DNA of 64,000 bases. Source: Acidovorax sp. SUPP3334. GTDB lineage: Bacteria; Pseudomonadota; Gammaproteobacteria; Burkholderiales; Burkholderiaceae_C. The stretch lies in the NCBI RefSeq assembly GCF_030159055.1, contig NZ_BQXQ01000008.1, forward strand, positions 1-64,000, read 5' to 3'. The translations under genes and the position numbers were made by a program. Below, piece after piece: positions 2,218 through 63,968 of the stretch; the stretch's first letter is position 1; each line of letters starts with the position of its first letter. The notes below the pieces were generated by a model. The model was not told the origin of the DNA. It worked only from the letters and a program-made list of their open reading frames with translations, and searched no databases.

Positions 2218-2915
<698 letters not shown>

Positions 2916-3014
2916 ACGATCTCTGGGTGTGACTCAAGGCCCATGGCCCGCGCCGCCTCCGGGGCTCTGCCACGCACGCGGCGGGGGCCTTTGCACTTGG
3001 GGTACAACCGGCGC

Positions 3015-3668
3015 ATGAAAGTGAAGTCCTTGCAGGATCTCCAGCCGATGCGCCAGGCCCTGGCAGAGGCGGCCGAGCGCGAGGCCCGGCTGCTGCGCGA
3101 GCGGCAGGAGGCCGCGCGACGTGCGCGGGCCGAGCTGATGCTGTTCGAGAACGCCGTCGGGCCCGTGCAGGCCCTGCGCGGCCAGCACGACCGGCGCTGG
3201 CACCGGCCCCTGCCGCCCGAGCCGCTGCCCGTGCAGCGCGAGCTGGACGAAGAACGGGTGCTGATGGAATCCATCAGCGACGAGTTCGACGTGACGACCC
3301 TGCTGGATGTGGACGATCAGATGAGCTACCGCCGCAGCGGCATCGGCCCCGAGGTGACGCGCCGCCTGCGCGCGGGCCACTGGAGCATTCAGCGCCAGCT
3401 CGACCTGCACGGCCTGCGCACCGACGAAGCGCGCGAGGCGCTGGGCGACTTCATCCGCCTGGCGCACCGCATCGGCCTGCGTTGCGTGCGCGTGGTGCAC
3501 GGAAAAGGCCTGGGCTCGCCCGGCAAGACGCCGGTGCTCAAGGGCCGCGTGCAAAGCTGGCTGGTGCAAAAGAAAGAGGTGCTGGCCTTCGTGCAGGCGC
3601 GGCCCGCCGAGGGCGGCGCGGGTGCGCTGGTGGTGCTGCTGCAGCCGGTGCAGCGGCGGGAGCACTGA
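3015..3668 (+). CDS. Smr (MutS2 C-terminal-like) domain protein
   Basis: A 217-residue soluble protein. Residues 1-50 are charged and probably coiled (LAEAAEREARLLRERQEAARRA). Residues ~125-215 form the Smr domain with its hallmark LDLHGL (QRQLDLHGLRTDEAREAL) and VVHGKGLGS motifs, followed by VLKGRVQSWL. Stand-alone Smr proteins are nucleic-acid nucleases or nicking enzymes, related to the MutS2 tail. I chose ATG 3015 because conserved-looking sequence starts there; the open frame reaching 2943 adds only low-complexity residues. A TACAAC just upstream of the ATG could be a -10 element giving a very short leader. It converges on the histidine kinase gene with a 12-base gap. Confidence 0.82.
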   Translation: MKVKSLQDLQPMRQALAEAAEREARLLRERQEAARRARAELMLFENAVGPVQALRGQHDRRWHRPLPPEPLPVQRELDEERVLMESISDEFDVTTLLDVDDQMSYRRSGIGPEVTRRLRAGHWSIQRQLDLHGLRTDEAREALGDFIRLAHRIGLRCVRVVHGKGLGSPGKTPVLKGRVQSWLVQKKEVLAFVQARPAEGGAGALVVLLQPVQRREH

Positions 3669-58699: not shown

Positions 58700-60145
58700 A
58701 TGTTCAGTTTTTTCAAGAAAAAGCCCGCTTCCCCCACCGAGCCGCAAGCCCCCCTTTCCACGGAGGCTGCGCCAGCCGTCCCCGTGCCCGCAACCCCGCC
58801 CTCCAGCGCGCCGCCGGCGCCTGCTGCGGCACCCGCCGGCACGCCTGCGCCTTCCGGGGGCTTCGGCTGGCTGCGAAATCCTTTCGCAGCGAAGGCGCCG
58901 GTGGAGGTATCGGTGCCAGCCCCGGTCCCGGTGCCGCCGCCAGCCCCAGCAGCCCTGTCGTCCGCGCCGGTCGCGATGCCTGTACCGGTAGCACCACCGG
59001 CTCCGGCGGCGCCTGCGGCCCCTGCCATGCCGGTCGCGCAACCCGTGCAGGTCGCCCCTCCTGCCTTGGCACCAGCACCAGCACCAGCACCACCAACGCC
59101 GGTCGCCCCTGTTCAGGCCCCTGCGCCGGTCGCCTTCAAGGTGTCGGCACCTGCGCCATTCCCGCCGCCCCCTGCGGTTCCTGCGCCCGCGCCGATCCCC
59201 GCACCCGTGCCAGCCCCAGCGGCGGACTCGGCACCCGTGGAAGCGGAACGCAAGGGATGGCTCAACCGCCTGAAGAACGGCCTGCGCAAGACCGGCAGCA
59301 GCATCGCCACCGTCTTCACCGGCACGCAGATCAACGACGCGCTCTATGAAGAACTGGAAGAGGCGCTGCTCATGGCCGACACCGGCGTCAAGGCCACGCA
59401 GCACCTGCTGGAGGACCTCAAGCGCCGCGTGAAGGACACCAAGACGACGGACCCCGCCGCCGTCAAAGCCCTGCTGGCCGATGCTTTGGCCGATCTGCTG
59501 CGCCCGCTGGAGAAATCCCTGGTCATCGGCCGCCATACGCCGACCGTGATCATGGTCGCGGGGGTCAACGGCGCGGGCAAGACCACGTCCATCGGCAAGC
59601 TGACCAAGCACCTGGCCAACGAAGGCGCCGCCGTGCTGCTGGCCGCGGCGGACACGTTCCGCGCGGCGGCGCGCGAACAGCTCGGCGTCTGGGCTGACCG
59701 CAACACGGTCGAGATCGTGAGCCAGGAAGGGGGCGACCCCGCAGCGGTGAGCTTCGACGCCGTGACCGCCGGCAAGGCGCGCGGCAAGGATGTGGTGCTG
59801 GTGGACACGGCCGGGCGCCTTCCGACCCAGTTGCACCTCATGCAGGAGCTGCAGAAAATCAAACGCGTGGTGACCAAGGCGGACGCCACGGCTCCGCACG
59901 AGGTGCTGCTGGTGATCGACGGCAACACCGGGCAGAACGCCCTGGCCCAGGTACGCTCTTTCGACGACGCCCTGCAGCTCACCGGGCTCATCGTGACCAA
60001 GCTGGACGGAACGGCCAAGGGCGGCGTGCTGGCCGCCATCGCCCAGGAACGGCCGATTCCCGTGTATTTCATCGGCGTGGGCGAAAAACTCGAAGACCTG
60101 GAAACGTTCAATGCCAAGGAATTCGCACAGGCGCTGCTGACCTGA
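58700..60145 (+). CDS. ftsY: Signal recognition particle receptor FtsY
   Basis: A 481-residue GTPase docking SRP-ribosome complexes at the membrane. The C-terminal NG domain (~170-481) shows ALLMADTGVKATQHLL, VAGVNGAGKTTSIGKLTKHL (P-loop), ADTFRAAAREQL, LVDTAGRLPTQ, TKLDGTAKGG and PVYFIGVGEKLEDL. The N-terminal region (~10-165) is Ala/Pro/Val-rich low complexity, not the acidic A domain of E. coli FtsY; only MFSFFKKKPAS at the very start and WLNRLKNGLRKTGSS before the N domain look membrane-targeting. Divergent from the M16 genes by 29 bases. Confidence 0.95.
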   Translation: MFSFFKKKPASPTEPQAPLSTEAAPAVPVPATPPSSAPPAPAAAPAGTPAPSGGFGWLRNPFAAKAPVEVSVPAPVPVPPPAPAALSSAPVAMPVPVAPPAPAAPAAPAMPVAQPVQVAPPALAPAPAPAPPTPVAPVQAPAPVAFKVSAPAPFPPPPAVPAPAPIPAPVPAPAADSAPVEAERKGWLNRLKNGLRKTGSSIATVFTGTQINDALYEELEEALLMADTGVKATQHLLEDLKRRVKDTKTTDPAAVKALLADALADLLRPLEKSLVIGRHTPTVIMVAGVNGAGKTTSIGKLTKHLANEGAAVLLAAADTFRAAAREQLGVWADRNTVEIVSQEGGDPAAVSFDAVTAGKARGKDVVLVDTAGRLPTQLHLMQELQKIKRVVTKADATAPHEVLLVIDGNTGQNALAQVRSFDDALQLTGLIVTKLDGTAKGGVLAAIAQERPIPVYFIGVGEKLEDLETFNAKEFAQALLT

Positions 60146-60153
60146 CGCCCCTG

Positions 60154-60190
60154 GCCTGCCTCTCCCGACCCCAGGCAAGGAGAGGCAGGC
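60154..60190 (+). terminator. Terminator-like stem-loop after ftsY
   Basis: GCCTGCCTCTCC (60154-60165) pairs perfectly with GGAGAGGCAGGC (60179-60190) around 13 bases, starting nine bases after the ftsY stop. No T-run follows. A second dyad (TTCGCTGC, 60260-60267, with GCAGCGAA, 60278-60285) lies further on, in the rpoH leader region. Confidence 0.7.
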
Positions 60191-60367
60191 GCTTCGAGGC
60201 AGCCCGAATTGGTGCCATCCGGTGAATTGATTGTTCACGAAACGAAGTTTTTTGATTTTTTCGCTGCTTTTTTCATAGCAGCGAATCGTTATGGAACCTG
60301 CACGGCCCCATAATTTTTCTTCAAGGACTCATCCACCCTGTCCTACGAAATGGCGGGAACCAGTCCC

Positions 60368-60394
60368 TTAGCACTCCCTCTTACTGAGTGCTAA
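60368..60394. promoter_or_regulatory. CIRCE operator (HrcA binding site) upstream of rpoH
   Basis: TTAGCACTC, nine bases, GAGTGCTAA: an exact match to the CIRCE consensus bound by the heat-shock repressor HrcA. It lies 31 bases before the preferred rpoH start (60426) and one base before an alternative ATG (60396). A CATAAT at 60309-60314 may be the -10 element, which would put CIRCE in the transcribed leader, its usual place. This predicts HrcA repression of rpoH. hrcA is not in the window. Confidence 0.93.
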
Positions 60395-60425
60395 CATGAA
60401 TGACATGGAAGAAAGGATCTCTGGA

Positions 60426-61367
60426 ATGACGCTTCAATCTGGCATCGCAGCGACTGCTCTGGCTCCCGCCAATCCTTGGGCGCTCATCCCCCCCTTGGGC
60501 AACCTGGACGCCTACATTTCGGCGGTCAACCGCCTTCCGCTGCTGACGGCGGAAGAAGAACGCACGTACGCGCGCCAACTCAAGGAAAACAACGACGTGG
60601 ATGCGGCGGGCCGCATGGTGATGTCGCACTTGCGTCTGGTCGTGTCCATCGCCCGCCAATATCTCGGCTACGGCCTGCCCCACGGCGACCTGATCCAAGA
60701 AGGCAATGTCGGCCTGATGAAGGCCGTCAAGCGCTTCGACCCCGATCAGAACGTGCGCCTGGTGAGTTACGCCATGCACTGGATCAAGGCGGAAATTCAT
60801 GAGTACATCCTCAAGAATTGGCGCATGGTCAAGGTGGCGACGACCAAGTCGCAGCGCAAGCTGTTCTTCAATCTGCGCTCGATGAAGCAGGGCTTCAAGG
60901 CCGACGCTGCCGCAGCCGATGCCGCCACCCACCGAGACACGCTGTCCGAGCGCGAGATCGACGCCGTGGCGCGGCATCTCAACGTCAAGCGCGAAGAGGT
61001 GATCGAGATGGAAACCCGCCTGTCGGGCGGCGACGTGATGCTGGACCCTTCGCCGTCCGATGACGGTGAACAGGCTTACGGCCCCATCGCCTACCTGGCC
61101 GACGGCGCACACGAGCCGACCGCCATGATCGAGTCGCGCCAGCGCGATGTCCTCGCCACCGATGGCATCGCCACCGCGCTGTCGGGCCTGGACGAACGCA
61201 GCCGCCGCATCGTGGAAGAGCGCTGGCTGAAGGTGAACGACGATGGTTCGGGCGGCATGACGCTGCATGAACTGGCAGCCGTGTACGGCGTGAGTGCCGA
61301 GCGCATCCGCCAGATCGAAGTGGCCGCCATGAAGAAGATGAAGAAGGCCCTGGTCGAATACGCCTGA
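60426..61367 (+). CDS. rpoH: RNA polymerase heat-shock sigma factor (sigma-32)
   Basis: A 313-residue sigma factor. Region 2 reads SHLRLVVSIARQYLGYGLPHGDLIQEGNVGLMKAVKRFDPDQNVRLVSYAMHWIKAEI (spread over ~65-125). The RpoH box QRKLFFNLRSMKQGF is intact. Region 4 is LDERSRRIVEERWL ... TLHELAAVYGVSAERIRQIEVAAMKKM. I chose ATG 60426 because AAGGA sits eight bases upstream; the ATG at 60396 abuts the CIRCE element and lacks a site. Controlled by CIRCE (above), so HrcA and sigma-32 are linked here. Confidence 0.95.
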   Translation: MTLQSGIAATALAPANPWALIPPLGNLDAYISAVNRLPLLTAEEERTYARQLKENNDVDAAGRMVMSHLRLVVSIARQYLGYGLPHGDLIQEGNVGLMKAVKRFDPDQNVRLVSYAMHWIKAEIHEYILKNWRMVKVATTKSQRKLFFNLRSMKQGFKADAAAADAATHRDTLSEREIDAVARHLNVKREEVIEMETRLSGGDVMLDPSPSDDGEQAYGPIAYLADGAHEPTAMIESRQRDVLATDGIATALSGLDERSRRIVEERWLKVNDDGSGGMTLHELAAVYGVSAERIRQIEVAAMKKMKKALVEYA

Positions 61368-63046: not shown

Positions 63047-63103
63047 TTTGCTATATTTTTCATAGCAATATGCCTTAGTGGATATTGCGGTGGAGCCTTT
63101 TTT
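63047..63103. repeat. Interspersed repeat copy G (minus orientation)
   Basis: Read on the minus strand: AAAAAAGGCTCCACCGCAATA ... CACTAAGGCATATTGCTAT, seven bases, ATAGCAAA. Hairpin TTGCTAT-N7-ATAGCAA is perfect. It is the same subtype as copy D. It ends one base before the ATG of the FNR-like gene, so it forms that gene's leader. Confidence 0.8.
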
Positions 63104-63104
63104 C

Positions 63105-63968
63105 ATGCATACCCTTCGATCGGCTCCAGACATCGCTCTCAGCACCGGCAGCGCCATTCCCCTTTGCCAGTCCTGCGCTTGCCGATCGCATTGCCTGCTC
63201 GGCCGCGCGCCTTGGGAGGTGCAGCGGGCCTGCGGCCTGGTGGAGCGGCGTTTCCGCAAGGGCGAGCGGCTGACGCTCGAAGGCCGGGCGGTGCCAGTGC
63301 TGCAGATCGTCAAGATCGGAACGGTGCTACTGCACCGCCGGGGCACCGATGGTCAGGACTTGCCTGTGGGCATGGCGGGTTGCGGTCAGGCGCTGGGTAC
63401 GACGCCCCTTTTCGCGGCGCCCATGGCGCTGTCCGCCACCGCCGTGGCCGACGGTCGGCTGTGCGAGATGCCTGCGGCCGCGCTGACTGCAGGGCACGGC
63501 GGCCCGGCCCTGACGGGCTTGCTGCACGCGCTGTCACAAGAACACGCCAGGGCCCAGGCGCAACTGGCCGACTGGTCCCGGCTGCTGCGGGTGCGCCGCG
63601 CCACGGCACGCCTGGCCGGCGCCCTGCTGCTGCTGGCCGACTTGCAGCGCAGTTCTCTGGTTCGGCTGCCGACGCAGGCGCTGCTGGCATCGCTGCTGGC
63701 CACGACGCACGAGACGGTGGCGCGGGGGCTTGCGCACATCGAACGTGCAGGTGGATTGGCCCGGCAGGACCGCTGGCACTGCGCCATCGCGCGGCCGCGC
63801 CTTGCTGGGTTGGCACGAGGGGCCGAAACACCTGTTTCAGCGGCACAGGCAATGGCCATGCACCCGGCGCCGGCCGCACGCACGACCGGCCTGGCTGCCG
63901 CACTGGCTCAGCCCTCGTTCAGCAACGCCTGCACGTCGGCGGCCAGCGCCTGCGCACCGCTGCCGTAG
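63105..63968 (+). CDS. FNR-like Crp-family transcription regulator with four cluster cysteines
   Basis: A 287-residue protein; ATG 63105 is preferred, as the longer frame from 63078 reads through the repeat. N-terminal cysteines are at 21, 24, 26 and 30 (CQSCACRSHC), matching the CX2CX5C of FNR, and Cys120 (GRLCEMP) aligns with FNR Cys122. An oxygen-labile [4Fe-4S] cluster is therefore likely. The sensor domain (~40-130) and dimer helix (~145-180) follow. The HTH (~188-215) has E203 and R207 in HETVARGLAHI, but Ala206 replaces the serine of FNR's E-xx-S-R. About 50 extra residues trail the HTH. The last 61 bases overlap, convergently, the gene ending at 63908. Confidence 0.82.
   Translation: MHTLRSAPDIALSTGSAIPLCQSCACRSHCLLGRAPWEVQRACGLVERRFRKGERLTLEGRAVPVLQIVKIGTVLLHRRGTDGQDLPVGMAGCGQALGTTPLFAAPMALSATAVADGRLCEMPAAALTAGHGGPALTGLLHALSQEHARAQAQLADWSRLLRVRRATARLAGALLLLADLQRSSLVRLPTQALLASLLATTHETVARGLAHIERAGGLARQDRWHCAIARPRLAGLARGAETPVSAAQAMAMHPAPAARTTGLAAALAQPSFSNACTSAASACAPLP

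Follow-up and report, generated by a model that had tools for sequence, protein, structure and literature searches.

In most accounts of heat shock, the positive regulation exerted by sigma-32 and the repression exerted by HrcA figure as two separate strategies. The window analyzed here, the whole stretch of 64,000 nucleotides from Acidovorax sp. SUPP3334, carries a CIRCE element, TTAGCACTC-N9-GAGTGCTAA, upstream of rpoH (Table 1). The first-pass annotation had read this element as an exact CIRCE directly 5' of rpoH, through which the HrcA repressor would feed into the supply of the sigma factor.

The CIRCE element and the rpoH gene

The placement was confirmed. The element, which lies between ftsY (58700-60145) and rpoH, has 0 mismatches and is the single CIRCE match in the 64-kb window at up to 3 mismatches. 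A chance origin was ruled out, since dinucleotide shuffles of the window gave a match at this threshold in 0/100 cases. The element ends 31 bp before the ATG at 60426, a near-start placement upstream of a heat shock gene.

Table 1. Positions of predicted control elements and coding features around the start of rpoH in the window
Feature	Position	Strand	Basis
Sigma-E-type -35, GGAACCA (consensus GGAACTT)	60356..60362	+	Block at -13..-6 conserved in 81 sequences; GAAC-N18-TCNNA in 72/81
CIRCE operator (predicted HrcA site), perfect 9-9-9 inverted repeat	60368..60394	.	Sequence match and relatives
TTAGCA, candidate -35 for TAACAT at 18 bp	60368..60373	+	Sequence; role presumed
Sigma-E-type -10, TCTTA, in CIRCE spacer, 16 nt after the -35	60379..60383	+	T11 94%, C12 95%, A15 99% in 81 sequences
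Possible sigma-70 -10 hexamer, TAACAT (CIRCE end plus conserved AT)	60392..60397	+	A28 99%, T29 100%; promoter role presumed
Shine-Dalgarno-like AAAGGA	60412..60417	+	Sequence; SD-like tetramer in 72/74 relatives
rpoH (sigma-32), 313 aa from ATG 60426	60426..61367	+	TIGR02392 and PRK06596 over cutoff; start comparison

The product of rpoH scored 387 bits against TIGR02392 (cutoff, 323) in a search, like that with PRK06596, that used the ORF starting at 60396. That codon was rejected as the start of the gene. Among the 74 of 80 relatives whose tblastn match ran from query residue 1, an ATG was found at the place of 60426 in 72/74 and an SD-like tetramer before it in 72/74, the first of these figures being slightly favored by the omission of six relatives with a later-starting match. 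At the position corresponding to 60396, by comparison, an ATG was present in 40/74 and was in frame and open in 28/74, the frame from there to residue 1 was kept in 42/74, and the third base of the codon was G in only 53% of 81 aligned sequences. The better-supported start is 60426, as the first-pass annotation had also preferred.

Several other features of the window were recorded. Just past ftsY, a perfect 12-bp inverted repeat (60154-60190) may form a hairpin at the end of the gene; it has no T run. Upstream of rpoH, a T-rich stretch is followed by a second perfect inverted repeat, of 9 bp (TTCGCTGCT / AGCAGCGAA, 8-nt loop; 60260-60285), which has no T run 3' on the + strand and is therefore not a simple ftsY terminator. 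Autoregulation by sigma-32 through a CCCCAT noticed by eye at 60306-60311 was considered and rejected, as the corresponding columns (-62 to -57) held 0.14 bit or less in the 81 sequences. Elsewhere, a gene for a CRP/FNR-type regulator (63078-63968; cNMP_binding and Crp HTH domains, several cysteines near the N terminus) is adjoined by a short ORF whose NAD-binding match is weak and falls short of the Pfam cutoff.

Spread of the rpoH operator and its co-occurrence with hrcA

The best rpoH matches suggest an Acidovorax-like member of the Comamonadaceae as the source of the genome. At up to 3 mismatches, it holds 2 CIRCE sites, namely that at rpoH and one with 1 mismatch upstream of a groES ORF (C6:27712; Cpn10, E 7.6e-35). 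HrcA control of rpoH presupposes the repressor, and here too the expectation of the first-pass annotation was borne out: hrcA is present (PF01628, E 1.3e-65) and its reading frame is open over 334 aa, which include both HrcA domains. No CIRCE control of hrcA was seen in this genome, where the only 2 sites are those at rpoH and groES, and its HrcA seems to do without CIRCE self-control; in the class draw described below, CIRCE adjoins hrcA in at least 13 genomes, 8 of which were retrieved. At the hrcA locus (L001), the gene is divergent from an NAD-kinase-like ORF (named by eye) across a 28-bp gap (1182-1209) without a CIRCE, and an integrase-like ORF, also recognized by eye, lies directly 3' of hrcA (2402-3472).

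An rpoH CIRCE is not peculiar to this genome and is common in the class. It was present at up to 2 mismatches in 80/80 Comamonadaceae rpoH loci (the best 80 of 576), with 62 exact copies, 17 with one mismatch, and 1 with two. Broader draws were made from the family (200 genomes, 190 with rpoH) and the order (140 genomes, 137 with rpoH), and the 30 highest-scoring rpoH rows of each were kept. At the same threshold, the element was found in 30/30 family loci, 29 within a fixed search interval and one on a cut contig (L040) by a scan of the whole locus, and in 28/30 order loci, the other two having 3 and 4 mismatches. Genome-wide, 197/200 members of the family draw carried one or more CIRCEs at this 2-mismatch threshold.

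The class draw comprised 132 genomes, mostly one per family, of which 122 had rpoH, and a CIRCE was counted if it had up to 3 mismatches and lay no more than 500 bp upstream of the match to rpoH. By this measure, CIRCE stood at rpoH in 84/91 genomes with hrcA versus 5/31 without (Fisher p 2e-15), a statistic that ignores the tree, shared ancestry being lessened and not abolished by drawing one genome per family. For an approximate null, 510-base stretches from the same loci, not in every case the upstream part, were mononucleotide-shuffled, and 3 mismatches were reached in 1/2420 cases. The exceptions were 7/91 genomes that have hrcA and lack the rpoH CIRCE and 5/31 that have the element without a detected hrcA; these are draft genomes, in which an absent hrcA or rpoE may be an assembly gap. 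Outside the class, in a phylum draw that considered only the best-scoring rpoH copy, CIRCE was found at rpoH in 9/39 genomes with hrcA and 0/14 without. All nine belong to a single family (f189), within which the split was 9/10 with hrcA versus 0/7 without. The splits in the class draw and in f189 indicate that presence of the rpoH operator mostly goes with presence of hrcA, and to this extent the link between HrcA and rpoH drawn by the first-pass annotation stands.

In family f189 (L355, L357, L359, L362, and L363), the rpoH CIRCE lies just 3' of a similar TTGCTTAAC/TTGATTAAC...TTAA stretch. Tandem CIRCEs occur at rpoH in one genome of the collection (G344, locus L250), where the exact copy is preceded, at a distance of about 5 bp, by one with a single mismatch (TTAGCAGTC-N9-GAGTGCTAA); this genome has no RpoE match and 4 CIRCE sites among the matches listed.

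A candidate sigma-E promoter overlapping the operator

The envelope stress promoters of sigma-E have a GGAACTT -35 consensus and a TCnnA/TCnAA-type -10 about 16 bp apart, a pattern matched by the stretch upstream of E. coli rpoH. The window reads GGAACCA-N16-TCTTA at and before the CIRCE, which fits the sigma-E promoter pattern with a -35 that is off consensus at 2/7 letters and ends in CA rather than TT. The genome encodes RpoE (TIGR02939 over cutoff), and an ORF for RseA (RseA_N domain) is found downstream of rpoE.

Conservation among relatives was assessed in 81 sequences anchored on CIRCE (80 Comamonadaceae and the window), which are close relatives and not independent. From -100 to -14 before the element conservation was weak (0.45 bit or less), and a strong block, GGGAAC(T/C)(T), stood at -13..-6. 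The nominally free CIRCE spacer was also conserved, as C10 T11 C12 N A14 A15, a pattern that differs from that of 31 groES CIRCE spacers among the matches listed. Taken together as GAAC-N18-TCNNA, the motif was present in 72/81 sequences, always at offset -11 (shuffle mean, 0.38). In a class set of 87 CIRCE-bearing rpoH promoters, GAAC-N17-19-TCNNA was found in 64/87 (shuffle mean, 0.70); in 56 of these matches GAAC lay at -16..-14 (45 at -15), and the others lay further upstream, clear of CIRCE or only touching it. Relative to Comamonadaceae, the -35 and -10 of the class set are both 4 bp further upstream with N16 kept, and the -10 takes its first two bases from the end of the left arm and the rest from the spacer (TC-TnA).

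CIRCEs at other genes served as controls, and among the matches listed the sigma-E motif was found at groES in 0/31 and at hrcA in 1/8. A weight matrix was built from the class set, with the 95% shuffle level as the cutoff. It scored above threshold in 75/81 Comamonadaceae, 22/30 order, and 14/29 family promoters, compared with 1/31 groES and 1/8 hrcA controls among the matches listed. The motif also followed the sigma factor: at CIRCE-bearing rpoH genes (n = 87; RpoE at E up to 1e-50, motif sought in the CIRCE and the 30 bp before it), it was present in 60/77 genomes with RpoE versus 0/10 without (p 2e-6), leaving 17/77 class genomes with RpoE in which it was missing. Only 9/29 family-draw promoters had GAAC-N17-19-TCNNA, and from this and the 14/29 by matrix, many genera of the family to which the window belongs would appear to have a degenerate promoter or a different one in its place. 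At CIRCE-less rpoH genes of class genomes, the strict motif was present in 3/26 without hrcA (0.35 expected) and 2/7 with hrcA; the phylum draw contributed ten more hrcA-less class genomes, several per family, and 8 of the ten had it at rpoH.

On these grounds the promoter at rpoH looks to be of the sigma-E type with its -10 inside the operator, which the first-pass annotation had overlooked. A -10 within the operator would make this an activator-versus-repressor gate, and the annotation's simpler picture, in which a repressor only feeds a sigma factor, would not be the whole of it.

Alternatively, HrcA may act via an ordinary sigma-70 promoter, either TTAGCA-N18-TAACAT or one further upstream, the GGAAC and TCnnA sequences being incidental. 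The two bases after the rpoH CIRCE are conserved in the 81 sequences (A28 99%, T29 100%) in a way that those at the same places of the 31 groES CIRCEs among the matches listed are not (77% A, 10% T), and the next base, G30, reaches only 53%. The nine f189 genomes with an rpoH CIRCE lack GAAC in the 30 bp that precede it, and HrcA control of rpoH may therefore use another promoter there. The strict sigma-E motif occurred at rpoH in just 2/53 genomes outside the class and was missing in 20/29 family-draw promoters. However, incidental sequences would not be expected to hold a fixed offset and a constant N16 despite a joint shift of 4 bp, nor to be absent from 31/31 groES CIRCEs among the matches listed and from 10/10 genomes without RpoE, and a consensus scan reports no sigma-70 promoter upstream of rpoH in the window. 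We regard control through a sigma-70 promoter as unlikely and favor HrcA acting on the sigma-E-type promoter.

It is highly improbable that the CIRCE serves mainly as a 5' stem-loop of the rpoH mRNA, governing stability or acting as an RNA thermosensor, rather than as an operator. In favor of such a role, the complete inverted repeat can form a 9-bp hairpin, the 93-nt stretch 60368-60460 gave a z of -1.26 versus shuffles, and a function of CIRCE at the mRNA level has been put forward for Bacillus. Transcription from the sigma-E start would, however, leave only the right arm in the message, the presence of CIRCE tracks hrcA, and recurrent single-arm changes (for example GACTGC or GCAGTC) are found with the opposite arm unchanged. 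The predicted fold of 60389-60520 is no stronger than that of shuffles (z 0.49), and 60100-60900 has no Rfam match; with these results and the z of -1.26, an RNA thermometer at rpoH was rejected as unsupported. Finally, a CIRCE inherited yet inert in this genome is scarcely credible: sites may outlive their repressor, as the 5/31 genomes that keep an rpoH CIRCE without a detected hrcA suggest, but here hrcA is open with both domains and both CIRCE arms are exact, and 26/31 genomes without hrcA are also without the rpoH CIRCE.

Predicted control of rpoH and its relation to known systems

It is probable that a working HrcA operator overlaps the main rpoH promoter, with RpoE driving rpoH and HrcA blocking it. 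From the computed sites, conservation, and co-occurrence, we infer a scheme of binding, exclusion, repression, and GroEL feedback. Polymerase carrying RpoE would recognize GGAAC(C/T) and TCTTA and is predicted to start transcription at ~60388-60392, in the right arm of the CIRCE. HrcA on the CIRCE would cover both the sigma-E -10 and this estimated start, and with the -10 mid-CIRCE and the start in the right arm, bound HrcA and sigma-E polymerase would be mutually exclusive. The possible housekeeping promoter (TAACAT), which also overlaps the operator, may add to rpoH transcription.

In Bacillus it is established that GroEL keeps HrcA active. Were this also the case here, plentiful GroEL would keep HrcA active and rpoH and groESL repressed together, and occupation of GroEL by unfolded protein would release HrcA, letting rpoH be transcribed in proportion to RpoE activity. 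Derepression of rpoH would thus coincide with that of groESL, at times when GroEL is engaged. The groESL CIRCE shares operator and repressor with that of rpoH and differs from it in the sigma-E motif, with 0/31 at groES among the matches listed. By eye, a TTGAC...TATTA-like promoter immediately precedes most of these 31 groES CIRCEs, and a single repressor would therefore act on two genes that are driven in different ways.

Parts of this arrangement have precedents. A CIRCE upstream of rpoH was predicted in Geobacter sulfurreducens in 2004, and the available text of that report describes a similar situation in that an exact CIRCE is close 5' of rpoH (-51), HrcA is present, and groESL is also a target (PMC545781). 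This organism differs in lying outside the class and in having its hrcA-grpE-dnaKJ operon as a further target; in the same text, sigma-32-like promoters are discussed and no sigma-E promoter overlapping the operator is (PMC545781). In Bordetella bronchiseptica, SigE was found in 2012 to transcribe the rpoH (fam) promoter in vitro, a beta-proteobacterial rpoH transcribed by a sigma-E homologue, according to the available text, in a paper whose main text has 0 mentions of HrcA or CIRCE; that text also gives P3 as the name of the sigma-E-dependent promoter of E. coli rpoH (PMC3490749). In our comparison, E. coli rpoH has GAACTT-N16-TCTGA upstream with the same N16 spacing, but the HrcA search of control genomes gave no E. 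coli match, and no CIRCE was seen by eye in 301 bases upstream of E. coli rpoH. In the open-access full-text literature we noticed no account of a CIRCE/sigma-E overlap at rpoH or of dependence on both genes. What we did not find in print is the overlap of operator and promoter; CIRCE at rpoH is known as a prediction, and sigma-E-driven rpoH of a beta-proteobacterium is known in vitro.

In much of this large class, a single promoter appears to bring the positive and negative strategies together and to take sigma-E as a further, third input; genomes lacking hrcA mostly lack the operator too. We lean slightly toward the hypothesis that the ancestral beta/gamma-proteobacterial rpoH promoter was a two-input gate, which sigma-E drove and HrcA blocked at the same bases, and that lineages losing hrcA, such as that of E. 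coli, dropped the operator and kept P3. If this is true, the textbook arrangement of E. coli would be what is left of an older circuit in which GroEL occupancy was read directly at the sigma-32 gene. In the bacteria that retain both elements, unlike E. coli, the supply of sigma-32 is predicted to be set transcriptionally by GroEL occupancy.
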